A stretch of DNA of 40,493 nt, from IMG/VR virus record IMGVR_UViG_3300022074_000114, positions 1 through 40,493 of that record. The stretch is one strand, 5' to 3'. A program made the translations under genes and the position numbers. Under the pieces are notes generated by a model. The model had not been told where the DNA came from. It made no database searches and saw only the letters and a list, made by a program, of their open reading frames with translations. The stretch is from a virus. Of the stretch, positions 12,885-32,720 are shown piece by piece (within the stretch, counting starts at the first letter, position 1; every line of letters starts with the position of its first letter).

Positions 12885-15800
12885 ATGGCAACAATATACG
12901 CAAAATACAATTCATCGTCAGTAGCAATGAATCCATTAGATCCAGATACATGGGTAGGAGGCGTTGTACCAGGCCCTGATGACATAGCAAGATTTTATTA
13001 TTATGAAAATACCGGCGCTGGGAGTTCATTTAATGCTACTAGTGCTTACACTAGCACCTATATGTATTTAGGCACCAGTCAATTCTCCCATGTAGATTCA
13101 AATTTCAATATAAATACTCCAATATCTAGAAATAGATTTACATCTGGAAGTCAAGGAGCATTCACTTCAAGTGTATGGTCTTCGGACTATTATAGAAATG
13201 TGATCGGACGACATGCAGCTGAAACACAAAGTAACGGAAATGCTTACACATATGGGGCTAATACATCTCCATTAAAATATCAAAAAGGATTTTATTCTAC
13301 CCAACTAAGTTTAAATTCAGTAGGTACTCCAGCTAGTTATAACAAAACATCAGATAACTATTACAACAATAATTATAAAGATCGCCTACAAATGTATAGC
13401 CCACATTTTGGACCATATTATTATAGAGCCAGAATGAGAACATTTTACAATTATAATAGTTATGGCAATGTTACATCTAAATTTACTTTTGATGGAGTTA
13501 CTATAACAGTAACAGGATCGGTAGACGGAGATTATGCAACAGGTAGTCGTACCTTTGGCGTATCAAAAACAGAGTGGTTAGCAGCTGGTAATCCATATAC
13601 AAGAACTGACAGAATGTTTGATATTATTACCGGATCTTCGTTAAATATAGAAAATGGTGGTCGATGGAAAATCTACGGACCTCATAACGGTAGAGGTCAA
13701 CATGTTGGTAATGTACTAAATCATTACAGTCATATTTCATTTTGGTTAGTTTCTGAAAGTATTAATAGTACTCCTACAATGACAAGCATGACCAATGGTA
13801 CTAGTTATGATCAATCATGGCACGTTGCAGCAAAGTATAATTATATGCCCGGGCATCAATATCCGCCATTTACAGAACCCAATGTATTTCATGCAGATTC
13901 AGGAAGTTTATTTATATTTCAAGAAGCATCTGGTAGTATGAAATATGGGTCTGCTTCAATAAATACTGATGGAGATACAGTTTATAATAGCGATAATGGA
14001 AATCATTACAATTACTTTTTCTCTGGATCTGATAATGCGTGGTATCAGAAACTTAATAGCTATTATGGTGTAGGTATAGGACCAGGAAATCCTGGCCAGG
14101 TAAAAATGTTATTTGATGATATAGGATATGGTAGTACCATACAAAATCCTAGAATTGATTCAACTTATAGTACATGGGTATCTGGTTCAACAACTGGCTC
14201 TACCGGTTATTCTACTGCATTTAATGAAGAAAATGATATAACCAATGAAGTAGTTGGTGGTATCAAAATGAGCTTGATGTGGCACAATGATAGATTATTA
14301 CAAAAATATGTATTATCAGGAAGCCAACATTGGAACGTAGGTAGAATTGAATTAGGCTCATTTAATCACTTTCATGTAAAAGATCAAGCAAAAATAACAT
14401 TGCATGATATGCAATCAGGAACTAATCACCCATCAATAGATTTTGCTCATTATGGTGGAGAAGATGCAACATTATTATTAACTGATGAAGTTACTATAGA
14501 AACATCGTCTAGCAGAACAAGTTTAGCATCTACCCAAGAATGCGGTATATGGCATTATAGAGCCGACTGTTCATTATTAATATCTGGATCTGCAAATTAT
14601 TCAAGATCATTAGCTCCGTCGGCATCTATCGCCGGCGATTCCACAATAGCTGTATCTAATTTACAAAATTCATTTGGAATTGGAGATTATATTTCAATTG
14701 AATCTACTGGTTCAGTAAAAACCAAAGGAATTTCAGAAGATGTATCATTACATTTTACTGGATCAGAATGGAATAATGGTGTATACGATAGTGGGTCCAT
14801 GGCTATGTTTAGAGGCAGAAGTTCAGATCCTACTAATGTAACTTCACGTGGAGTAAATCCACAAGTTGGTCCTGGTTATACTACACAATATAAAAATAAT
14901 AATAATTGGTTTGTTTCTAGATATTACACAAATACATGCGAAACAGATGAAATTGTACAAATTGCATCAATGAGTGGAGATTATGCAACTGTTATTAAAA
15001 TGCATGGTAAAGAAGGAGAAATACAATCGGATATGGGATTGTATACACATGATCAATTTGTTGAAACATTTGGAGAATCTTCTGATACCATGTATAATGG
15101 CAATAAACGTGTTGTGTTAGTTGATAGCAATCATTTAAATTTTAAAACTGGAGACAATTTAGTAATAAGTGGTAGTAGTTACACTGTATTAAATGCAACA
15201 TCATATTTATCACAATCACATTTTTATGAATTTACATCATCAAATCAACCTGCACTAGAAGATGTATTTGATTTAGAACCTGCAGTTTATTCTGGGTCTA
15301 GCATATGGCCAGTTACCTTAGGAACATATGGCATAACATCTCCAACTACATATTATACAGAAGTATTTAAAAAAGATAGACTATTAATAACAGGATCATT
15401 TAAAGGATCAGAGTTTTATCAAGACAAATATAAAACATCAAATGCATATAACAATACTAGATATGGAGGCTCATCAGGATCTTCTAATGGATATAGAGCA
15501 TTGCGATTAGATCCTACATTGACTTATGGATGGAGAAATTGGAATGGTACAAGTTATTATGATTATCATAGTGTTGAAAGTACTGAACATTTATGGGGAA
15601 AATATAATTTAAAAGACACATTTAATTTTAGAGACGGTGAAATTATCGTGTCTGGTAGTTTATTACGAGACGGTAATTTTGATCCTACTAGTAGTGAAGC
15701 ATGGGATTATCGAAATGGATTCAATGTTAGTTGGGGAGAAACTAGTATTCATGGCCCTCATAATTCTTCACAAGATAGTTATTATGGTAAGCAAGCATAT

Positions 15801-18800
15801 TATGATTATAACCCACCATATCCATATACACATAGAGTTTCATTTACTTATCAAGGTGGACCTTCTATTAATCATGGAACCTATAATGTTCATGCAAATT
15901 TACCATTAAGTAATGGTAGAGTATTTAATGGAGGAACAGATGCAAATTCTTCTGGAAGTTTCATGATACATAAACAAACAAATAATCCAAATGCCCCATA
16001 CCGATACATATATAGTGCAGCTAGAACACCAATACAAGATGATCCATCATTCCCTGCAGGATTAGATTTTGATTCGTTATGGTTAAGCGGCTCTGCTACG
16101 TATAGTGATGCAACAGCATCGCTAAATCCTGGTACCGGTCATATAAAAGTTGCAATAAATAAAGGACATGGCAAAGTATATGTTGGAGCAAATGGCCAAG
16201 AAATATTATTTAATAAATTTTTCAATGAAATGGGAAGAGGTTATGTTCGTTTAGGATTAAACATGTACTCATCTATATATAGTGTCAACATTAAAACTAG
16301 ATGGCAACAATTAATTTTAGATACAACAGATTCATTTAATTATCGTGATAGAATTAAAGAAGGCGGATTATTATATAACCATTATCCAAATCATGAAGTA
16401 AAACATATTGCTTCTGAAGTTGTTGATGCAAAAGGATTTAAAAATTTATTATGGGAAGAACAATACACAAAAGGTAACACAAACAGAAAACCTTATATGT
16501 TTGCAAATTGTTATTCGGGAGCAACAGCAGGAGCTCCAGGTATTAATGGTCAAAAATATGTATCAGAACAATATAATCCTGGACGACCTTTAGTACCTGG
16601 CGGATTTATTTCTTCACAATTATATGCCTACTATCAAAATTCAGATAATTTTTATATTATTTATGACTTGCGTGAGCAAACACAATTTGACACTGTTGGA
16701 ATGGTATTTTTTGATACCGCAACAATTGGATATGAAAATGATGTTAACAATAAAATGAATAATATTCGATTTGAAGTTACAGATGATGTAGGAGTTGATT
16801 CTCCATCATGGACAACTGTTGTTGCAACATATGATGATACAAGATTAAATACAGGTGATGGAGGTATTAGATTTTATACTTTTCCATCTGGTTCTGTAAC
16901 CAAACGATTTATAAAATATCATAGTAGAGGCGGAACTTCAAATGCAGCTTATGCACAACATTCATTCTTTGGATTGTATAATATGTCTGCATCGTGTGCT
17001 GATACATTAACTCCAGCACCAAACGAAGACTACACAGATTCATATGGCGGACCGTCTGGATCATTATGTCAAGTAGAACTAGGCGATGCAAAAAATTTCA
17101 AAGTTGGCGATCTAGTTTATTTTTGGAGTAAACAAATGAGCTCCGGAGCTAGACTAAACAAATCATCTACGACATATTATGGTTATAAAAATATGCATTC
17201 CACAACAGGATATTTCGATAAATCAACTCCAGATGATGGATTCCTAGGCGGAGTATGGAATATACATAAAATAACTGCTAAGAATGGAAACACAATAACA
17301 TTGAATAAACCTATTACTCATAATCATGTAGGTGTAGGAACAATGTGTTACAAATATAATCGTGGTAATATTACTCTTAAAGGCGATAGAGCTGCACCAT
17401 TTATGATTTACGGTACTAGTCAAACTAATTATAGAGCAATTAAAAATGCAACATTTATAAATGGGTTTTCCAGAAAAGATCAGATAGCTTACAACAAATA
17501 TCCAGACTTAATTGAAGATGTTGGCATGATGATGAATCATGACAGTTACTATGGGTATCATGGCCATGGATTATATAAAAATATAGTAGGAAATGGTCCG
17601 CAATGTGGAGGAAATACAAATGTTATGTCTGATATTTACAATACTCAAAGATTCAATGTCATGCAAACTTATGGTGCTACTAATTTCAATACTAGCGCAG
17701 AGATAATGGGAGGCGGTCATAAATATGTACAAAGCTTTGGAGTAGATCTAACCTATAGGAACTATACTGCATATATTTATAGTAATGCATATTATAATGC
17801 AGTTGGAGCAAATTCACCATATTACTTAAGAAATAATTTTATATTAGGAGGTCAAAATTTTAGTTTAGCAGATTATGCCGGGGGCGGATGGATAAATACT
17901 CATCAACAAACTTATAATCTAAATGATTTTATTTTTAGTGAAGGTAATGTAATGGGCCAAAGAACAAATAGAGGTGATTTATATGAGCCTAATGATACAC
18001 ATAATCTTCGAAGAGATAAAAATGGAGAACTTAGGTCTATAACAGGTGAAATAGCACAATGGAATCAATGGTTTTTTCCAGGTAACACAAATCCAAGAAT
18101 GAGACCAGGCATATATACTTGGAATCAGCATCAAACCAGAAGATACGGCAATCTGGATAGCGTTGGTAGATATGGTGCTAGATTATATAGTGGAAAAGTT
18201 CATGATTTATTTGAAGGACATGACTTTTTGCTAATTAAAAATCAATATTATAAACACACATTTATTTTGAAATCTGAAAATTATGCAACTGATGGGTTAT
18301 ATGATATTTATCCACATTCGAGTAACACATTAGATATCAATCAAAATGGTTATAGTGATGTTATGATTTCTTGTATATTTCTTGTTAAAGAAGAATGTGA
18401 TGTTCGAGTTGATATAGATTTCACTTATATAATTGATGCACTCAATGTTATATATGGTAATGCAGATACTGTTAGTTATTATGGTAACAAAGAATACAAT
18501 CAATTTGGTAGATCTCATCCATATATCAGTGTTATTAACAATGATACTACAGATCATGTAGACGTAACATATCTTGATAAAACCACATTAACAACCTTGG
18601 AAAAACGAGATGTACATACACTAGAACCAGGATCATACTCTGTAAATTTACATGGAAGAAGTAGTTATAATCAAACAGTTCACCATTTAATGCGTATCAA
18701 AGATATTGATTTAAAATTAGTAACTTCTGATTTATCTAAAGTTAGTGTGATTCAATCTAATTGGGATGCATTAAAATTATTTGATAATGTAGAACATAAT

Positions 18801-18908
18801 ATCAATTATAATTCACTTCCATACACTGAAAATGCTGGAAAAAACAGAGTATTAAAACAATCTTCAGATTTATCAACTAATTATAAATTCAATAAGATTA
18901 AATTGTAA
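12885..18908 (+). CDS. Giant 2007-residue virion adhesin or polysaccharide-interacting protein
   Basis: The largest gene of the window. The N-terminus (NPLDPDTWVGGVVPGPDD, 16-33) resembles the start of G8-type and related beta-helix proteins (W-x-G-x-VP-x-x-DD). Aromatic (Tyr, Trp, His) content is high throughout. Turn-like motifs with a Gly-Asp recur, for example FGIGDYISIES, FKTGDNLVISG and FKVGDLVYFWS. Residues about 1175-1370 look like a discoidin-type (F5/8C) carbohydrate-binding domain. Near residue 1475 the segment TITLNKPITHNHVGVG is followed by ITLKGDRAAP, resembling the G8/PbH1 beta-helix architecture. No catalytic residues can be named. A receptor-binding or capsule-interacting tail protein is likely. 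Confidence 0.75.
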   Translation: MATIYAKYNSSSVAMNPLDPDTWVGGVVPGPDDIARFYYYENTGAGSSFNATSAYTSTYMYLGTSQFSHVDSNFNINTPISRNRFTSGSQGAFTSSVWSSDYYRNVIGRHAAETQSNGNAYTYGANTSPLKYQKGFYSTQLSLNSVGTPASYNKTSDNYYNNNYKDRLQMYSPHFGPYYYRARMRTFYNYNSYGNVTSKFTFDGVTITVTGSVDGDYATGSRTFGVSKTEWLAAGNPYTRTDRMFDIITGSSLNIENGGRWKIYGPHNGRGQHVGNVLNHYSHISFWLVSESINSTPTMTSMTNGTSYDQSWHVAAKYNYMPGHQYPPFTEPNVFHADSGSLFIFQEASGSMKYGSASINTDGDTVYNSDNGNHYNYFFSGSDNAWYQKLNSYYGVGIGPGNPGQVKMLFDDIGYGSTIQNPRIDSTYSTWVSGSTTGSTGYSTAFNEENDITNEVVGGIKMSLMWHNDRLLQKYVLSGSQHWNVGRIELGSFNHFHVKDQAKITLHDMQSGTNHPSIDFAHYGGEDATLLLTDEVTIETSSSRTSLASTQECGIWHYRADCSLLISGSANYSRSLAPSASIAGDSTIAVSNLQNSFGIGDYISIESTGSVKTKGISEDVSLHFTGSEWNNGVYDSGSMAMFRGRSSDPTNVTSRGVNPQVGPGYTTQYKNNNNWFVSRYYTNTCETDEIVQIASMSGDYATVIKMHGKEGEIQSDMGLYTHDQFVETFGESSDTMYNGNKRVVLVDSNHLNFKTGDNLVISGSSYTVLNATSYLSQSHFYEFTSSNQPALEDVFDLEPAVYSGSSIWPVTLGTYGITSPTTYYTEVFKKDRLLITGSFKGSEFYQDKYKTSNAYNNTRYGGSSGSSNGYRALRLDPTLTYGWRNWNGTSYYDYHSVESTEHLWGKYNLKDTFNFRDGEIIVSGSLLRDGNFDPTSSEAWDYRNGFNVSWGETSIHGPHNSSQDSYYGKQAYYDYNPPYPYTHRVSFTYQGGPSINHGTYNVHANLPLSNGRVFNGGTDANSSGSFMIHKQTNNPNAPYRYIYSAARTPIQDDPSFPAGLDFDSLWLSGSATYSDATASLNPGTGHIKVAINKGHGKVYVGANGQEILFNKFFNEMGRGYVRLGLNMYSSIYSVNIKTRWQQLILDTTDSFNYRDRIKEGGLLYNHYPNHEVKHIASEVVDAKGFKNLLWEEQYTKGNTNRKPYMFANCYSGATAGAPGINGQKYVSEQYNPGRPLVPGGFISSQLYAYYQNSDNFYIIYDLREQTQFDTVGMVFFDTATIGYENDVNNKMNNIRFEVTDDVGVDSPSWTTVVATYDDTRLNTGDGGIRFYTFPSGSVTKRFIKYHSRGGTSNAAYAQHSFFGLYNMSASCADTLTPAPNEDYTDSYGGPSGSLCQVELGDAKNFKVGDLVYFWSKQMSSGARLNKSSTTYYGYKNMHSTTGYFDKSTPDDGFLGGVWNIHKITAKNGNTITLNKPITHNHVGVGTMCYKYNRGNITLKGDRAAPFMIYGTSQTNYRAIKNATFINGFSRKDQIAYNKYPDLIEDVGMMMNHDSYYGYHGHGLYKNIVGNGPQCGGNTNVMSDIYNTQRFNVMQTYGATNFNTSAEIMGGGHKYVQSFGVDLTYRNYTAYIYSNAYYNAVGANSPYYLRNNFILGGQNFSLADYAGGGWINTHQQTYNLNDFIFSEGNVMGQRTNRGDLYEPNDTHNLRRDKNGELRSITGEIAQWNQWFFPGNTNPRMRPGIYTWNQHQTRRYGNLDSVGRYGARLYSGKVHDLFEGHDFLLIKNQYYKHTFILKSENYATDGLYDIYPHSSNTLDINQNGYSDVMISCIFLVKEECDVRVDIDFTYIIDALNVIYGNADTVSYYGNKEYNQFGRSHPYISVINNDTTDHVDVTYLDKTTLTTLEKRDVHTLEPGSYSVNLHGRSSYNQTVHHLMRIKDIDLKLVTSDLSKVSVIQSNWDALKLFDNVEHNINYNSLPYTENAGKNRVLKQSSDLSTNYKFNKIKL

Positions 18909-21726: not shown

Positions 21727-22437
21727 ATGGCTGGCGTTAAAACAGGCATATCAGGACAAATAAATAATAATATTGTCACGGATGGATTAGTATTTTATAT
21801 AGATCCTGCTTATAAATCATCGTATACAGGTACTGGTACTACATTAACAGATTTAGAAGGATCAAATAATTTAACATTAATAAATGGTCCTACATTTAAT
21901 TCTAGCGGTAATGGAAGTATTAATTTTGATGGTCCTTCAGATTATGCTGAAACAGAATCAAATATAGGAATTTCTAGTAATGATTCAAGAACTTTTGAAG
22001 GCTGGTATTATATCGACGACACTACAAATAAAAATATTGCTGGATATGGTGCTTCTGGAGGTGCAATTTTATATGATACAATGATATTTAATAATGGTGG
22101 ATATGTTAATGCTATAGGACATTATTATGGAGGAGGAAATGATACTATTAGTACTCTTCCTAGTAGAAATACTATTAATGTAAATCAATGGAATCAAATT
22201 GTACATTTATATGATGGATCCGATGTTTCAATATATACTAATGGAGAATTTAGTAATTCTAAAACTTTAAGTCTGAATACAACAAATAGTAAATTAAGAA
22301 TAGCAGCCGGCCATTATGCCGGAGCATATAATTATTTTCTTGGTAAAGGAAGTACATTTAAAATATATAACCGTGCTTTATCAGCAGGAGAAGTTCTTCA
22401 AAACTATCAAGCACAAAAAGAAAGATTTGGATTATAA
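21727..22437 (+). CDS. LamG/concanavalin A-like lectin-fold protein 1 of 6
   Basis: A 236-residue protein. It begins with NNIVTDGLVFYIDPAY (14-29) and ends with YNRALSAGEVLQNYQAQK plus ERFGL. Both are hallmarks of the Laminin_G_3 / concanavalin A-like jelly-roll domain found in phage tails and bacterial surface proteins. The central WNQIVHLYDGSDVSIYTNG is the usual strand pair. There is no signal peptide. It opens a run of six adjacent genes of similar size and fold. Binding to host-surface glycans as a tail protein is inferred. Its stop overlaps the next start (TAATG). Confidence 0.85.
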   Translation: MAGVKTGISGQINNNIVTDGLVFYIDPAYKSSYTGTGTTLTDLEGSNNLTLINGPTFNSSGNGSINFDGPSDYAETESNIGISSNDSRTFEGWYYIDDTTNKNIAGYGASGGAILYDTMIFNNGGYVNAIGHYYGGGNDTISTLPSRNTINVNQWNQIVHLYDGSDVSIYTNGEFSNSKTLSLNTTNSKLRIAAGHYAGAYNYFLGKGSTFKIYNRALSAGEVLQNYQAQKERFGL

Positions 22438-23150
22438 TGGGTATACGTAGAGGTGAAATAACAACTAAAATTGTTTCTGACGGATTGGTATTCAATATGG
22501 ATGCTGCAAATAGAGCAAGTACTATACCAAGTACTGCTACAACAAAAACATTTAATACAGTAAATTTATCTCAATCTGGAAGTTTTATAAATGATACTAT
22601 ATATGATTCTAGTACTGTTACACCAAGTTATGCTTTAGATGGAAATGGAGATAGAATTCAATTAATACCAAATGATTTAGATTTTAGCAGTTTTACTAAT
22701 GGGTTTACTATGTCTACTTGGGTAAAACTAGCAAATAATACACAGACAGGTACTTACATTTATAGTAGAAGAAATTCTTCTAATAGTGATAATATATTTT
22801 CTATAATATATGGATATGTCTCCCAAAAATACGAAATATATAATGGTGCAGGAGGTGTTTTACGAGCCAATTCCCAAATTACTGTTAGTGATACTAATTG
22901 GCATAACATATGCTACAGTATAGGAACATCAGCAAAAGGATATTTAGATGCTTCCTTAACAACTAATGTAAGTTATGGATCTATGGTTGTATTAGGTTCT
23001 AGCACAGGAGATAATATTATAGGAGATTTTGGTAATGGAGTACATGATGTATATGGTAATATAGGACCAGTACATGTATACAACCGTGTATTATCAGCAG
23101 AAGAAGTGTTATACAATTATAATGGATTACGAGGGAGGTTTGGAGTATGA
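22437..23150 (+). CDS. LamG/concanavalin A-like lectin-fold protein 2 of 6
   Basis: A 237-residue paralog of its neighbours. The start motif IVSDGLVFNMDAANRAS, the middle strand STWVKLANNTQTGTYIYSRR and the ending YNRVLSAEEVLYNYNGLRGR identify a Laminin_G_3-type domain. The N-terminal region is closest to the next protein in the run (shared GLVFNMDAANRAS), pointing to a relatively recent duplication of this pair. The start overlaps the preceding stop by one base, and its TGA overlaps the next ATG, so translation through the array is coupled. Confidence 0.85.
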   Translation: MGIRRGEITTKIVSDGLVFNMDAANRASTIPSTATTKTFNTVNLSQSGSFINDTIYDSSTVTPSYALDGNGDRIQLIPNDLDFSSFTNGFTMSTWVKLANNTQTGTYIYSRRNSSNSDNIFSIIYGYVSQKYEIYNGAGGVLRANSQITVSDTNWHNICYSIGTSAKGYLDASLTTNVSYGSMVVLGSSTGDNIIGDFGNGVHDVYGNIGPVHVYNRVLSAEEVLYNYNGLRGRFGV

Positions 23151-23884
23151 GAGTAGGTAGCATAACAACAGATATTATAGCGGATGGGCTAGTATTCAAC
23201 ATGGATGCTGCTAATAGAGCTAGCTATGTAGAATTCAATACAACATCTTATAGTACTATTAATACAACAAATACAGGAAGTGTAGAAAATGATGCTGCTG
23301 TAGATTCTTTAGGTAATCCTAAAGCATGGGATTTTGACGGAATTGATTCAGCTGTTAGATGTTCTAATGTAGGAGATGAAATTGGAAAACCTTCAGAATA
23401 TACTTTTGAAGTATGGTTAAAACCAACTGATAGGGGAACAAATGCATATCAAATTTTCGGACAAAATTATGCAGCTTTTATACATAATACTTATAATCCT
23501 CCCCAATTCTCTTGGAGTACTTATCAAACCGGCGGAGGCGGCTCATATCAAGGTACACCTTTAGTATCATTAGACATAGTTGATAAGTGGACACATATGG
23601 TAGCTACATACCAAACTGCTTCAATGGGATTTGTTGATGGAACTAGTTATTCAGGAAACGTTTATTATAGAACCGCAGACGGAACAGTAGATGTGCATAG
23701 CACTGCAAATATGAATGGTACTATAGGAAGCTTTTACTATAAGGATTTTGGGTTTGGAAACGCTCAATCAGGGGTTTCAACGTTCGTAGGACAAATAGCA
23801 TGTGGAAGAGTATATAATAGAGCTTTAACCAAATCAGAAGTCCTACACAACTACAACGCATTAAAAGGTAGATTTGGCCTATAA
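23147..23884 (+). CDS. LamG/concanavalin A-like lectin-fold protein 3 of 6
   Basis: A 245-residue member of the array with DGLVFNMDAANRASY near the start, FEVWLKPTDRG and WTHMVATYQTASMGFVDG in the core, and VYNRALTKSEVLHNYNALKG plus RFGL at the end. ATGA overlap with the previous gene. It is the last of the first group of three, because a 25-base gap holding a candidate late promoter follows. The core loops differ strongly from genes 1 and 2 while the two ends are conserved, as expected if the ends hold the fold or attach to the virion and the loops bind varying ligands; that reading is inference. Confidence 0.85.
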   Translation: MRVGSITTDIIADGLVFNMDAANRASYVEFNTTSYSTINTTNTGSVENDAAVDSLGNPKAWDFDGIDSAVRCSNVGDEIGKPSEYTFEVWLKPTDRGTNAYQIFGQNYAAFIHNTYNPPQFSWSTYQTGGGGSYQGTPLVSLDIVDKWTHMVATYQTASMGFVDGTSYSGNVYYRTADGTVDVHSTANMNGTIGSFYYKDFGFGNAQSGVSTFVGQIACGRVYNRALTKSEVLHNYNALKGRFGL

Positions 23885-23886
23885 CA

Positions 23887-23894
23887 TATTTATA
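23887..23894 (+). promoter_or_regulatory. Candidate late promoter inside the lectin array
   Basis: TATTTATATAAAAAG, identical over 15 bases to copies at 6231 and 29170, lies 15 bases before the ATG of lectin gene 4. It is the only clear promoter-like site between 18921 and 26034. Confidence 0.5.
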
Positions 23895-23909
23895 TAAAAA
23901 GAACAGATT

Positions 23910-24611
23910 ATGGCATTTCATCATTCACCGAGAATAGTATCAGACGGATTAGTATTTGTCTTGGATGCAGCAAATATTAAAATGTATCCTGGGTCTGGAA
24001 CTACAGTAACAGATACTATTAGTGATACTTCTGGTACATTTACTGGTGCTGGATTTTATGATACTTCAACATTTGCAACTCCAGTATTTTCTTTTGATGG
24101 AAGTAATGATTATCTAACATATACTGATAGTACTATTCCAACACTAGGATCAGCGTTAACATGCGGGTTATGGATCAAATCATCTGATTCGCAAGCTGAA
24201 TTATTTTGTACATTTGAAACAGCTAATCCATTCAAAGGATTTTTATTTGGTATTGGATTTTCTGGAAATAATGGGAAATTAGATCTATACTGTTCACCAA
24301 CAGATGGATCCGGTGGAACAGCAGCTGCTGATACAGGTGTAGCTGTCAATGATAATACAATAAAATATGTTGTAGTTACTTATGATGGATCTAATGCAAG
24401 ATTTTATCATGATGGAGTATTATCATCAACAGTAAGTTTTACAAAAACAGCAGGCGCTTCAACTCAACCATTTAGAATAGGAGCTTCAAATAATTCCCCT
24501 GCTAATAGAATTTATTCAGGATTGATGGGTCCAGGACATATATACAATAGAACATTGACAGATGCAGAAGTACTTCAAAACTACAACGCAATGAAAGCGA
24601 GGTTCGAGTAA
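23910..24611 (+). CDS. LamG/concanavalin A-like lectin-fold protein 4 of 6
   Basis: A 233-residue member with PRIVSDGLVFVLDAANIKMY at the start, FSFDGSNDYLTY, CGLWIKSSDSQ and VVTYDGSNARFYHDG in the core, and YNRTLTDAEVLQNYNAMKAR at the end. This is the most typical Laminin_G_3 sequence of the six. It has its own candidate promoter 15 bases upstream and overlaps the next start by TAATG, so genes 4-6 may form a separately expressed group. Confidence 0.86.
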   Translation: MAFHHSPRIVSDGLVFVLDAANIKMYPGSGTTVTDTISDTSGTFTGAGFYDTSTFATPVFSFDGSNDYLTYTDSTIPTLGSALTCGLWIKSSDSQAELFCTFETANPFKGFLFGIGFSGNNGKLDLYCSPTDGSGGTAAADTGVAVNDNTIKYVVVTYDGSNARFYHDGVLSSTVSFTKTAGASTQPFRIGASNNSPANRIYSGLMGPGHIYNRTLTDAEVLQNYNAMKARFE

Positions 24612-25303
24612 TGGCAACGAATTATGGAACAGTTATACCATTAAATGGAGTAGCATCTTATTTTGATTCTAAAAAAGGAATATCAGATGCATTAGGAATT
24701 GCAGATCCATTAATAGCAAGAAATTCTGCATTTATTGATTCTGGATCATATCAAACATATTATGATGTTGGTGTGAGTAACAGATATTATCATACCAATA
24801 GTACGCCAGATACGTTGAAGGGAAATTCTAATTTTACAGTTTGTGGAGTATTTCGTCGAACTGCAGGATTCACAAGCAAAGGATGTTGGGGGATAGGAGC
24901 TGATGTAAGTGGACAAGGTATTTGTTCTTGGAATAGTACTGCTAATGGAAAAATTACAATAGACTTATGGGGTACAGCGACTTTCTCTACTGATCAAGTA
25001 TATCCTGAAGATGAATGGTGTTTTGCAGCATGGACAAAAGCAGCTGGCGTTTTTAGTAGAGCAAATATTGCTATGTGGAAAAATACTGTAAAATATACTG
25101 GATCTGATTTAGTAATACTGCGTGGAGGCGAATCTTCAGCAGTTAACATAAACGATAATGGATTAACCATAGCATCTATCAATGACTCAACTACATATGT
25201 ATGTCCAATAGAAATAGGATTCATAATATTTTATGACAGAGTGTTAACTGATACAGAAATTCTTAAGATGCATACTTTTGCACAAGGAAGGGGATACTTA
25301 TAA
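24611..25303 (+). CDS. Divergent LamG-like protein 5 of 6
   Basis: A 230-residue protein whose ending IIFYDRVLTDTEILKMHTFA keeps the (Y/F)-(N/D)-R-x-L-(T/S)-x-x-E-(V/I)-L signature of the array. The N-terminal motif is replaced by GVASYFDSKKGISDALGI. Core segments such as FTVCGVFRRTAGFTSKGCWG and WCFAAWTKAAG still fit a concanavalin-like sandwich. It contains several Cys residues, unlike its neighbours. Start and stop overlap the flanking genes (TAATG at both ends). It is probably a diverged member or one acquired from another phage lineage. Confidence 0.78.
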   Translation: MATNYGTVIPLNGVASYFDSKKGISDALGIADPLIARNSAFIDSGSYQTYYDVGVSNRYYHTNSTPDTLKGNSNFTVCGVFRRTAGFTSKGCWGIGADVSGQGICSWNSTANGKITIDLWGTATFSTDQVYPEDEWCFAAWTKAAGVFSRANIAMWKNTVKYTGSDLVILRGGESSAVNINDNGLTIASINDSTTYVCPIEIGFIIFYDRVLTDTEILKMHTFAQGRGYL

Positions 25304-26034
25304 TGGCAGTAATAGGCGGACGTAAACCACCACATCAAGAAGATATGATACTATACATCGATGGAGCATCGCCATCCACTGTTAGCTCAAACGGAACTCA
25401 ATTTAGTAGTATGGTTAAAAATGGAGTAGTAAATCGAGATGTATTAACCAATGACAATGCTCCAACATATGTAGAAGCAGGATTAGGTAGTTACATGGCA
25501 TTTGATGGTGTTGATGATGCTCTTCGTTGGAATAATACTGGATTTTCGAGTACCTATGAAATAACAGTTGCAATGTGGATGAAACCAAGATCTCATTCTG
25601 GAGGAACATATTGGAGAGGATTTTTTAGTGCTAGATCAACAGACGGAGGAAATGATCATAATACTGGTGTTTCCATGGATATGAGGAATGTAGCTAGAAG
25701 TTCATTTGATACTTTCAATATTGAAACTGGCGGAGGTTCAGGTAACACAGATCAAATGACTTCAAATATTGCATGGAACACATGGACTCACGTAGTTGGA
25801 GTTGTTTCAACAAGTCAAACCATTCCTTACATAAACGGTTCTGCAGAGAATACAAAAAGTAAAACTCAAGCTTACATTAATCTAGATTATTTGGTTTTTG
25901 GAGCAAGAACATACGGAGGCAATACAGGATATGCTCATGTTGATATAGCATCATGGAGTGTATTTAATAGAGTATTAACGCCTGCAGAAATATCAGACTT
26001 ATATACTCAAAATAAATGGCGGTATGGTTTGTAA
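25303..26034 (+). CDS. LamG/concanavalin A-like protein 6 of 6
   Basis: A 243-residue protein with EDMILYIDGASPS near the start, YMAFDGVDDALRW and ITVAMWMKPRSHSGGTYWRG in the core, WTHVVGVVSTSQTIPYING, and FNRVLTPAEISDLYTQNK at the end. All are standard Laminin_G_3 features. It closes the run of six. The gap after it contains a candidate late promoter, so the downstream small genes and tail genes are separately controlled. A ligand is not predictable. Confidence 0.83.
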   Translation: MAVIGGRKPPHQEDMILYIDGASPSTVSSNGTQFSSMVKNGVVNRDVLTNDNAPTYVEAGLGSYMAFDGVDDALRWNNTGFSSTYEITVAMWMKPRSHSGGTYWRGFFSARSTDGGNDHNTGVSMDMRNVARSSFDTFNIETGGGSGNTDQMTSNIAWNTWTHVVGVVSTSQTIPYINGSAENTKSKTQAYINLDYLVFGARTYGGNTGYAHVDIASWSVFNRVLTPAEISDLYTQNKWRYGL

Positions 26035-29201: not shown

Positions 29202-29711
29202 ATGGCATTAGAACAAAATTTACCAGGTATTAATCAAAATGATTTATTTTTGAATGCATTTGATTGGGAACCTAAATATACTAATCGATTTATTATGTAT
29301 ATTGCAGATATACCAACATACATAATAAAAGCAGCTGCAAGACCATCTTTAACTAATGGTGAGATTGTATTAGATCACATTAATGTTGATAGAAAAGTTA
29401 AAGGTAAAACAAGATGGAACGATGTTTCAATTACATTGTATGATCCAATTGTACCATCAGGAGCACAAGCAGTTATGGAATGGGTTAGATTACATCATGA
29501 ATCATTAACTGGTAGAGATGGATATAGCACTCAATATAAGAAAGACATTACATTTCATTCATTATCACCAACGGGTGAAAAAATTGAAGAATGGTGTTTA
29601 AAAGGTGCATTTATTTTAGACTCTAATTTTGGTCAAATGGATTGGGGTACAGAAGAGTCAGTTCAAATTGAATTAACATTGAAATATGATTACGCTGTAT
29701 TAGAATATTAA
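29202..29711 (+). CDS. gp19: Tail tube protein (T4 gp19-like)
   Basis: A 169-residue protein, close to T4 gp19 (163 residues). The pattern KYTNRFIMYIADIPTYIIKA followed by RPSLTNGEIVLDHINVDRKV and WNDVSITLYDPIVPSG is that of T4-type tube proteins. The ending GQMDWGTEESVQIELTLKYD is the usual final strand pair. AGGAAAT precedes the ATG. Promoter-like site upstream and a strong terminator downstream isolate it as a single-gene unit, in keeping with the many copies needed per tail. Confidence 0.95.
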   Translation: MALEQNLPGINQNDLFLNAFDWEPKYTNRFIMYIADIPTYIIKAAARPSLTNGEIVLDHINVDRKVKGKTRWNDVSITLYDPIVPSGAQAVMEWVRLHHESLTGRDGYSTQYKKDITFHSLSPTGEKIEEWCLKGAFILDSNFGQMDWGTEESVQIELTLKYDYAVLEY

Positions 29712-29794: not shown

Positions 29795-30550
29795 ATGGCA
29801 AAATTAACAGATCGTTATGAAAATCAAAATTTAATAAATTTAGCTAAAGACAAATACGAGCAAAAACAAAAAAGTACTATTCCATCAGAAATTGTAACAT
29901 TAACAAGTCAAGGAAAAGTATATCCAGAAAATAGTCCGTTAAGTTCTGGAAAAATTGAAATGCGATACATGACAGCATATGATGAAGATATTTTAACTAA
30001 TAGTTCATATATATCAGAAGGAGTTGTATTAGATAAACTAATTGATTCACTAATCATTACAGATGTAAATTACAATGACATTGCTCAGGTAGATAAAGAT
30101 GGATTAGTTTTAAATGCAAGAATATTAAGCTATGGCTCTGAATATCCAGTTACAGTTACAGATCCAAAAACAAAAAAACAAATTAAACAAACTGTAGATT
30201 TATCAAAAATTCAATCAAAAACAATTGACATTGAAAGTAATGATCAAGGAGAATTTACATATGAAACTGAATCATTACAAATAAAATTTAAATTTTTAAC
30301 AAACAATAAATCAAATAAAACTATCAGCGAATATTTATCAAATATTATAACAGAAGTAAACGGAAAAAGAAAACAATCTGAAATAGATAATTTTATACGA
30401 TATGAATTTCTTGTTAAAGATAGCAAAGATTTTCAAAAGTTTATACTTAATAATACTCCATCACTTATTTTAGAATATGAATTCCAAGGCGAGGACGGGA
30501 GCGCTTTTACTGCCGGGTTTCCGGTTGGCCCAGACTTTTTTTGGATTTAA
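29795..30550 (+). CDS. T4_baseplate-family protein (gp26-like), possible tail assembly chaperone
   Basis: A 251-residue protein. Residues 33-90 (IVTLTSQGKVYPENSPLSSG, then IEMRYMTAYDEDILTNSSYI and VVLDKLIDSLI) match the opening of T4_baseplate (PF12322) proteins, which include T4 gp26. The C-terminal VGPDFFWI matches the family's usual DFFW ending, so this frame can end naturally here. It lies between the tail tube and tape-measure genes, the classical place of tail assembly chaperones, and its last codons overlap a second frame at a T7 run. It may act as baseplate hub factor or as tape-measure chaperone; sequence alone does not decide. AAGGAA precedes the ATG. Confidence 0.85.
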   Translation: MAKLTDRYENQNLINLAKDKYEQKQKSTIPSEIVTLTSQGKVYPENSPLSSGKIEMRYMTAYDEDILTNSSYISEGVVLDKLIDSLIITDVNYNDIAQVDKDGLVLNARILSYGSEYPVTVTDPKTKKQIKQTVDLSKIQSKTIDIESNDQGEFTYETESLQIKFKFLTNNKSNKTISEYLSNIITEVNGKRKQSEIDNFIRYEFLVKDSKDFQKFILNNTPSLILEYEFQGEDGSAFTAGFPVGPDFFWI

Positions 30551-30764
30551 GCCAGAAGATAGACCAAAGTTACACGACGCATTATTTGAACTAGTATGGG
30601 CTGGAGAAGGTCGATGGGATTGGAATACTGTATATCATATGCCAATCTTTCTTAGAAATTTTTGGATACGAAAATTAAACAAACTTCATGACATAAAAAA
30701 GAAGGCTCAACAAAAATCTAATCAAAAATATACTAAACCAAAAATACAAAAACCTCCTATGTAG
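30477..30764 (+). CDS. Overlapping downstream frame, possible frameshift extension or gp51-like small protein
   Basis: The open frame runs from an ATG at 30477 for 95 codons. Only the part after about residue 22 looks protein-like: LHDALFELVWAGEGRWDWN followed by VYHMPIFLRNFWIRKLNKL, a pattern I associate with small proteins encoded after T4_baseplate genes. The first 22 codons are simply the other reading of the conserved end of the upstream gene. The ATG has no ribosome site and no other ATG follows before the conserved part. Expression by a +1 shift in TTTTTTT at 30536-30542 would give a fused protein of about 322 residues. The C-terminal tail is Lys/Gln-rich. Confidence 0.7.
   Translation: MNSKARTGALLLPGFRLAQTFFGFKPEDRPKLHDALFELVWAGEGRWDWNTVYHMPIFLRNFWIRKLNKLHDIKKKAQQKSNQKYTKPKIQKPPM
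30536..30544 (+). other. Candidate +1 ribosomal frameshift site (T7 followed by GG)
   Basis: In the upstream frame the codons are TTT TTT TGG, two codons before the TAA. A peptidyl Phe-tRNA slipping one base forward on the T run would read GGA next and enter the downstream frame. A -1 slip leads to an early TAG and does not join the frames. Inference from sequence arrangement only. Confidence 0.4.
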
Positions 30765-30788: not shown

Positions 30789-32720
30789 ATGAATATTCTG
30801 AATTCACATATTTTATATTTAAAAACATTTCCTAATCAAGGTCAAAAAAAAGATAAAGAATTAAAAGATAAAGCTTTATCTAAGGCTACTTTACAACAAC
30901 AATTCAAAGACTTTGATGCTGAAAAACAAGCTAAAGCAACAAAACAATTGTTTGATCAGATAGCACAAGGATCAACCGAAGCACAAGTAGGAGTAGAAAA
31001 ATTAGTTGGCCAACAAGAAAAATTAGGAATAACATTAATTGACCTAGCAAAAAAGTCGACTTTTTTAGAACAAAGAAATAGAGAGTTAAATAAAACATTT
31101 GGCATTAATTCGGGAACTGCAGGCGAATTAGGAGAAAAATATGATAAATTAGGCACGTCATTTAATACTGGCGGAAAACAAATTCGAAAATACGCTCAAG
31201 AATTAAATAGATTACTTCCGTTACAAGCTCAAAATTTAACTGATACAGATAAAGCTAATAAATCTGGATTTACATTTAATTCTAGATTAATTAAAACAGC
31301 AAAATTATTTCGTGAAAATTTAGGGTTATCTGCAGAAAATGTACAAGGCTTTGCAAAATTTACTGCAGGATTAGGAGAAGCTGGCGGAAGCACTCAAGAC
31401 GTAGCTGCTCAATTAACAGCTTTTGCACCAGCATTAGAAGAAACAACTGGTTTAGTTGGTACTACTAGATCAATATTACAAGATGTATCATCATTATCAT
31501 CAGATGTGCAGTTACAATTTAGGAATTATCCAACTCAACTAGGATTAGCAGTTTTAAAAACAAGAATGTTAGGAACTAGTTTAGGCGAAGTATTTAGTAT
31601 AGGAAAAAATTTATTAAATATAGAGCAATCAGTTGGAAATGAATTAGAATATCAATTATTATCAGGAAAGCGATTAGTTAATCAAGACGGCGAAAGTTTA
31701 ACTCAAAAATTTCGTGAAGCAACATTAATGGGCGATGCAAATGCAACTGCAGATGCAATGAATGAAATATTAGAAACTCAAGGCGACACAATAAAAGATA
31801 ATTTCTTTGCAAGAAAAAAATTAGCTGAAACATTAGGTATATCTGAAGAAAAATTAGCTGGCATGGTTCAACAGCGAGAATTGTTAGAAAAAGCAGGACC
31901 GCAAGCTGAAAAAATACTGAGTTATCAAGGAGACCAGTTAGCAGGAGCAGTTGATGAATTTAAAAAAACAGCAACTGAAGATCAATTAAAAGCATTTAAT
32001 AAATTAGTACAAAATCAAGCAAATCAATTAACAACTGATGAAAAGATGGTATACTATCTTGAAACTTTAACAACAGGATTAATTGGAGAACAATTTGCAT
32101 TACCTGGAAGTCAAGCACAACAAATACGAGATACACAAAACGCATTTGCAGGAACTGGTTCTGCTGCAGTAGGCAGAGGTAATTTAAAATCAGTTATGGA
32201 CCTTCCATCTGACTTAACTGGTTTGAGTAATACTGGTTTAGCTGAGACATTAGGAGCATTTGGTGATACTGCAAATAAATTTGGAGCAGCTGCAGATGCA
32301 TTCAATGCAACAGTAGAAATTATTCCTATTGCTGGTGACTTAGCAAAAAAAGCTGGAGATTTAGCAAATGCAGCTGTATTTAAAGGAATTAATTCAATTA
32401 GAGCAACTACTGTGGAATCTATTAATATAGGAACAGCACAAAATATAAATGACAATACAGGTGGCGGCAATCCAGATCAAGACTTTATTTCTAGACCAGG
32501 AGGCGAAAAAATATCATTTAGTTCCAAAGACACAGTGGTAGGAGCTAAGCCAGGAGGACCAATTGATCAAATGTTAGCAATGTCTAGCGGCGGAGGAGGA
32601 GCATCAATTGATTATAATGCCATGGCAGCAGCAGTAGCATCAGCAATGAGTAACGTACAAATAGTAGCACCAACCGATATTTACAGAGATTCAGAAATGA
32701 ATATGCAATCAATAACATAG
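30789..32720 (+). CDS. Tail tape measure protein (T4 gp29 position)
   Basis: A 643-residue, strongly helical Ala/Leu/Lys/Gln-rich protein. Residues about 275-345 (LLNIEQSVGNELEYQLLSGK, then EATLMGDANATADAMNEILE and FFARKKLAETLGISEEKLAG) resemble a conserved block in tape measures of aquatic myophages. A glycine-rich segment lies near the C-terminus. T4 gp29 has 590 residues, so a tail of broadly T4-like length is expected. The position after tube and chaperone-like genes and before baseplate tube-initiator genes is the standard one. No convincing membrane helix was seen; the region near VEIIPIAGDLAKKAGDL is only weakly hydrophobic. The ATG lacks a clear ribosome site. Confidence 0.85.
   Translation: MNILNSHILYLKTFPNQGQKKDKELKDKALSKATLQQQFKDFDAEKQAKATKQLFDQIAQGSTEAQVGVEKLVGQQEKLGITLIDLAKKSTFLEQRNRELNKTFGINSGTAGELGEKYDKLGTSFNTGGKQIRKYAQELNRLLPLQAQNLTDTDKANKSGFTFNSRLIKTAKLFRENLGLSAENVQGFAKFTAGLGEAGGSTQDVAAQLTAFAPALEETTGLVGTTRSILQDVSSLSSDVQLQFRNYPTQLGLAVLKTRMLGTSLGEVFSIGKNLLNIEQSVGNELEYQLLSGKRLVNQDGESLTQKFREATLMGDANATADAMNEILETQGDTIKDNFFARKKLAETLGISEEKLAGMVQQRELLEKAGPQAEKILSYQGDQLAGAVDEFKKTATEDQLKAFNKLVQNQANQLTTDEKMVYYLETLTTGLIGEQFALPGSQAQQIRDTQNAFAGTGSAAVGRGNLKSVMDLPSDLTGLSNTGLAETLGAFGDTANKFGAAADAFNATVEIIPIAGDLAKKAGDLANAAVFKGINSIRATTVESINIGTAQNINDNTGGGNPDQDFISRPGGEKISFSSKDTVVGAKPGGPIDQMLAMSSGGGGASIDYNAMAAAVASAMSNVQIVAPTDIYRDSEMNMQSIT

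Follow-up and report, generated by a model that had tools for sequence, protein, structure and literature searches.

Two overlapping open reading frames, ORF1 and ORF2, in a 40,493-nucleotide stretch of DNA from a marine T4-like phage (hereafter, the window) likely constitute a single recoded gene, in which a programmed +1 frameshift yields a short and a long tail assembly chaperone. We assign this reading a probability of about 0.8; the evidence is comparative, and there are no protein or reporter data.

ORF1 (29795..30550; plus strand, as are ORF2, the slip site, the hairpin and the tube and tape measure genes) encodes 251 residues and was identified through profile matches and relatives as a candidate gp26-like tail assembly chaperone, the putative short form. 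ORF2 as listed (30477-30764, 95 residues) starts at an ATG at 30477, lies in the +1 frame relative to ORF1 and overlaps the last 74 bases of the latter. The window contains seven consecutive T residues at 30536-30542, and the two frames meet at GAC TTT TTT TGG ATT TAA. The slip site TTT TTT TGG occupies 30536..30544, with YTT/TTT in the P site and TGG in the A site, and the +1 frame goes on with GGA, so that a +1 shift would produce ...GPDFFGFKPEDRPKL.... The body of ORF2 after the slip (30543..30764), delineated by conservation and dN/dS, would form a C-terminal extension unique to the long form. When the two ORFs are joined by the +1 shift (29795..30764), the spliced product, which was analyzed with AlphaFold2 and hhalign, is exactly 322 residues long and includes FFGFKPEDR. 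The predicted +1 junction peptide, ...GPDFFGFKPEDR, is of the DFFGF type, whereas a −2 slip would read ...DFFFGF. The initial annotation had given these ORF coordinates, the +1 relation and the T7 run, all of which held, and had proposed a product of about 322 residues from a slip on TTT TTT TGG; its length and the FFGFKPEDR peptide were borne out on splicing, and its production remains an inference.

The gene order in the window is sheath, tube, the ORF1/ORF2 pair and tape measure. The tail tube gene (29202..29711) matches phrog_4542 (E 1.2e-22), and its product shares 48% identity with the protein that Flavobacterium phage immuto has at the tube position. The probable tape measure gene (30789..32720, 643 residues) was assigned because its product resembles the protein annotated as tape measure in the same phage (29% identity over 224 residues, E 1e-15). 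Location between the major tail protein and tape measure genes is a criterion for a programmed-frameshift tail assembly chaperone, and the pair meets it. The reading of the pair as tail assembly chaperones, already suggested in the initial annotation from this position, gained independent support from the comparisons below, with expression still inferred.

Relatives of ORF1 were found in 80 viral contigs; these 80 loci and three from annotated phages made up the comparison set, from which duplicates were then removed. The counts given below are of distinct sequences and do not represent independent evolutionary events. The motif NNN-YTT-YTT-TGG is kept in frame 0 in all 60 distinct relatives that have TGG at the junction, so the pair also satisfies the criterion of a conserved, overlapping second ORF and a conserved slip site close to where the first one ends (60/60). 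The motif is not a common one: in 309 kb comprising 40 representative loci, YTTYTTTGG occurs 42 times, with one occurrence at the junction of each locus. It is therefore nearly absent elsewhere, and its presence at the junction is far above chance. Many relatives have a C in place of the first T and hence T6 instead of T7, with the frame offset unchanged. In two relatives, the run is broken altogether: CTTCTTTGG (CTT CTT TGG) in L069 and TTTCTTTGG (TTT CTT TGG) in L001, which is Flavobacterium phage immuto, have no T run longer than three at the junction. A C precedes the run in 58 of the 60 relatives. The Asp codon before the run is GAC in 33 of 33 representatives, whereas elsewhere in ORF1 GAC accounts for only ~19–20% of Asp codons (~80% are GAT). 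The invariance of the slip motif is a direct observation; that the shift occurs, and how efficiently, is inferred.

The +1-frame tail is conserved from the T run onward in 57 distinct close relatives as well as in a distant group (L001-L003) that consists of phage immuto and Microcystis phage Mel-JY01, both of which have been cultured, and a 484-kb phage (L003). In the latter, the site differs (AAC TTT CTA TTC) and the +1 tail is present. The initial annotation's claim that the downstream frame is protein-like only after the T run therefore held. The median dN/dS is 0.17 for ORF2 after the slip, compared with 0.23 for ORF1, and synonymous constraint reaches 0.85 in the last ten codons of ORF1 versus 0.47–0.78 in earlier ten-codon windows. 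Both frames are thus conserved and under selection at the protein level. The G+C content of the overlap upstream of the run (30477-30535) is 59%, compared with 15–32% in 60-base blocks across the rest of ORF1. In the deposited annotation of phage immuto, ORF2 is represented by just a 36-residue fragment (2351-2461) labeled "hypothetical protein"; the open frame extends back as far as the slip site.

In the proposed mechanism, most ribosomes would terminate at the ORF1 stop codon and produce the 251-residue short form. A minority would stall when the A site holds TGG, a scarce Trp codon, and the P-site tRNA would move forward by one base from YTT onto the overlapping TTT (+1); these ribosomes would then read GGN and proceed through ORF2 to make the 322-residue long form. 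TGG is about five times rarer than GGA (9.2 vs 48.8 per 1000 codons), and a slow A-site codon favors a +1 shift (PMC5009743). The bacterial RF2 shift takes place on CUU_U, and UUU_U also occurs (PMC5009743); the CTT TGG variants fit a CUU_U shift as in RF2. We infer that the C before the run suppresses slipping in the −1 direction, since a T there would create the −1 heptamer T TTT TTT. Downstream of the site, there is no sign of a stimulatory RNA structure (in four sequences, the 97 nt that follow the site gave z values of 0.0 to 0.6), and a Shine-Dalgarno stimulator directly upstream of the slip site is not consistently present in the clade of the window. If an analogy with lambda gpG/gpGT holds, coating of the tape measure protein would fall to the short form, and the C-terminal extension would enable the long form to recruit tube subunits, in which case the ratio of the two forms would matter for tail assembly. 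The chaperone role is inferred from gene position, T4 genetics and this analogy, with no data on binding to the tape measure or tube.

Upstream of the slip site, the mRNA contains a conserved hairpin that the initial annotation had missed. In the window, it spans 30485..30508, with 7-bp arms at 30485-30491 and 30502-30508, about 30 bases upstream of the slip codon; the 10-nt loop is purine-rich and contains GGGAG/GGAGG. The arms are GAAGGTG and CACCTTC in most relatives and CAAGGCG and CGCTTTT in the window. RNAalifold predicted no other substantial helix. The five core pairs are intact in every one of the 58 sequences (the window and 57 relatives), and 97.6% of the hairpin cells are paired, compared with 40–60% when one arm is slid. 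As a control, the region was recoded 500 times, keeping the amino acids unchanged and following the codon usage of ORF1. The observed mean is 6.875 of 7 pairs, against 5.11 (SD 0.13) for the synonymous recodings, none of which exceeded 5.58; in two pairs (3 cells), both sides have changed. The hairpin is therefore maintained beyond what the protein requires, which shows that an RNA element is under selection. A stimulating role in the shift is only inferred, and the location of the arms, which end ~30 nt 5' of the slip codon and hence beyond the reach of known Shine-Dalgarno stimulators, counts against a function of that type. The hairpin might stop backward slipping by refolding behind the ribosome, mask an internal start (many relatives, but not the window, have an ATG in the loop) or serve as the binding site of a regulator; each of these remains a possibility. 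Inspection by eye did not reveal it at the corresponding position in the distant relatives L001-L003.

ORF1 is a member of the T4 gp26/gp51 family, as shown by its matches to PF12322 (T4_baseplate; 41.0 bits, cut-off 24.5) and phrog_150 (E 8.5e-14), the latter of which includes both T4 gp26 and T4 gp51. The C-terminal part specific to gp51 corresponds to phrog_634 and to positions 227-281 of phrog_150; neither ORF2 nor the spliced product matched phrog_634 in hmmscan searches. In profile-profile comparison, ORF2 alone has a moderate match to cyanophage gp51 (P 70, 36 columns), and a direct single-sequence comparison with T4 gp51 gave no signal. An AlphaFold2 model of the spliced 322-residue protein, built from an alignment of the window and viral-contig sequences only, has a mean pLDDT of 91.3 and is confident over residues 246-310, with helices on both sides of the junction. 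Such a prediction fits a single joined protein and does not prove that it is produced. A Foldseek search of BFVD matched the model to T4-like baseplate hub (assembly) proteins; against the PDB, Foldseek with the long-form model returned nothing below E 0.6, and a sequence search of the PDB yielded no credible match.

The connection to gp51, also absent from the initial annotation, emerged from searches with phrog_150 and phrog_634. In P-SSM2, S-PM2, HTVC008M, phiM12 and phiW-14, the gp26-like ORF is followed by an overlapping ORF in the −1 frame that matches the last part of T4 gp51. When the two parts are joined in silico, the cyanophage product aligns with T4 gp51 over nearly its full length (E 1e-8), and its first part aligns with all of T4 gp26 up to the end of the latter (E 1e-15). 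The +1 product of the window clade, in turn, aligns with the cyanophage −1 product over profile columns 34-313, through the junction (hhalign P 98.3, E 1.6e-14; E 0.42 for the reversed control). Natural homologues of the joined product are thus shown to exist, with the link between ORF2 of the window and T4 gp51 being indirect, via the cyanophages. In the P-SSM2-like loci, NNT TTT TTC (T TTT TTC) is invariant (73 of 73 distinct loci), the sequence in P-SSM2 itself being AGT TTT TTC GTA TAA, and most of the loci have GGAGG or GAGGG ~10 bases 5' of it. The −1 site of E. coli dnaX is arranged in the same way. Re-initiation is a rival explanation in this clade because an ATG sits just after the gp26 stop codon.

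The pairs in the cyanophage, Pelagibacter phage, phiM12 and phiW-14 loci (L094, L095, L115, L097, L098 and L117-L196) look like −1 frameshift genes at T TTT TTC/T, with "gp51" annotated in them as a short gene of its own. A further gp26-like gene, in PQ819873 (L099; recorded as Streptococcus phage GXN1), is followed by an unannotated +1-frame extension of ~90 residues, with a possible shift at TTT CGT or CCC CGA.

We compared the ORF1/ORF2 pair with four known systems. Like lambda gpG/gpGT, it comprises two ORFs between the tube and tape measure genes, the second of which is in another frame near the end of the first, with short and extended forms predicted. In contrast to lambda, the slip site is different, and there is no sequence homology between lambda GT and the window product (hhalign P 0.2). 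Homology is not required for membership in this class: frameshift chaperones of different phages have low sequence similarity and use −1, −2 or +1 shifts (PMC5009743). Through the cyanophage products, the joined protein resembles T4 gp51 and the short form T4 gp26, both of which are hub assembly chaperones; in T4, however, these are two separate, diverged genes, and gene 26 ends with GAG TTC TTT GAG TTA CTA TAA, which contains no slippery run. The gp26 and short gp51 of the cyanophages, Pelagibacter phages and phiM12 make up the same two-part protein in overlapping frames, and the joined products align end to end; the differences are the −1 frame at T TTT TTC, the upstream GGAGG/GAGGG and the ATG after the gp26 stop. 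The proposed site has in common with that of bacterial RF2 (prfB) a slip on CUU_U or UUU_U and a slow codon next in the A site, but this codon is UGG rather than UGA, there is no close Shine-Dalgarno stimulator, and no regulatory loop is expected.

The principal alternative to the frameshift is that ORF2 encodes a separate protein whose translation starts internally, before the T run and in the +1 frame, and that the junction is kept simply because both frames are coding. Nearly all relatives do keep some candidate +1-frame start upstream of the run: at positions relative to TGG, GTG −53 is present in 38, ATG −65 in 30 and ATG −47 in 28 of 40 relatives, and the ATG at −47 is usually preceded by AAGGTGAAG (AAGG), so internal initiation cannot be dismissed for these 28. 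However, no single start is universal, and the window has neither GTG −53 nor ATG −47. Its ATG at 30477 lacks a Shine-Dalgarno-like sequence (catcacttattttagaat), as the initial annotation had stated, whereas AGGA-type ribosome sites precede most neighboring genes (for example, aaaaaggaaagtt before ORF1). The suggestion that ORF2 has no start of its own consequently held only in part; it is true of a usable conserved start, and most relatives have an upstream +1-frame ATG or GTG. Furthermore, synonymous substitutions in frame 0 that change the +1 residue occur freely before about codon 240 (F238 TTC/TTT, G235 GGG/GGA, D234 GAT/GAC), and the last codons are fixed. Finally, the fused product that a frameshift would be expected to give exists naturally as T4 gp51. 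We therefore consider internal initiation unlikely as the sole explanation; it may take place in addition to the shift in relatives with AAGGTGAAGATG.

Entry into the +1 frame by a −2 slip, which would add one extra Phe, is permitted by the T run and has a precedent in the tail chaperone of phage Mu (PMC5009743). It is very improbable here, since for the CTT codons of L069 and L001 re-pairing is good at +1 (CTT to TTT, the RF2 case) and poor at −2 (CTT to TTC); our inferred preference for +1 over −2 is based on these variants. The 7-base homopolymer in the window also raises transcriptional slippage on the T/A run, a sequencing error or a decayed gene. All of these are virtually ruled out: the same frame relation recurs in 60 distinct sequences from many metagenomes and from isolates, and ORF2 is under purifying selection. 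With the T run broken in two relatives, neither of which has a run above three, a homopolymer error is excluded and polymerase slippage is unlikely. The initial annotation had named two findings that would refute a programmed +1 frameshift, namely relatives encoding the second part without overlap and with its own ribosome site, and a 6- or 8-base sequencing error. Neither was found: the relatives overlap at the run in the same frame relation, and the T run is real.

The G-T frameshift has been called conserved in long-tailed phages "except T4" (review, PMC5009743). T4 gp51 is essential and of unknown function, being required yet absent from the final particle (PMC3004832), and a comparison of 26 T4-like genomes noted that cyanophage gp51 lacks the first ~200 residues, with no mechanism given in the sections that bear on it (PMC3037559). 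A frameshifted gp26-gp51 protein would account for the T4 exception, the unknown function of gp51 and the truncated cyanophage gp51. We infer that T4 replaced the recoded gene by two genes, gp26 and gp51 being its counterparts of gpG and gpGT, which would explain the residues seemingly absent from cyanophage gp51. A gp26/gp51 frameshift was not found in the open-access literature searched (subscription papers were outside the scope). We also lean, with less confidence than for the pair itself, towards a bolder reading in which gp26/gp51 represents the frameshift-type tail chaperone that has long been missing from the T4 superfamily as a whole. The shift would be +1 here, biased forward by an upstream hairpin of a new kind, and −1 in cyanophages, Pelagibacter phages and their relatives; in T4, gene duplication would have left gp26 as G and gp51 as GT, with the slip site lost. 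The family would then offer a case of a shift switching direction between −1 and +1 and finally being replaced by two genes. Such a protein would give two classical T4 genes testable roles and correct the annotation of many marine phages.

Two other regions of the window were recorded. A 2007-residue ORF (12885-18908) has no PHROG match. Positions 21727-26034 contain six consecutive ORFs of 230–243 residues, five of which are mutual paralogues (about 24–32% identity) matching the virion structural protein family phrog_8510; the ORF at 24611 is marginally related.
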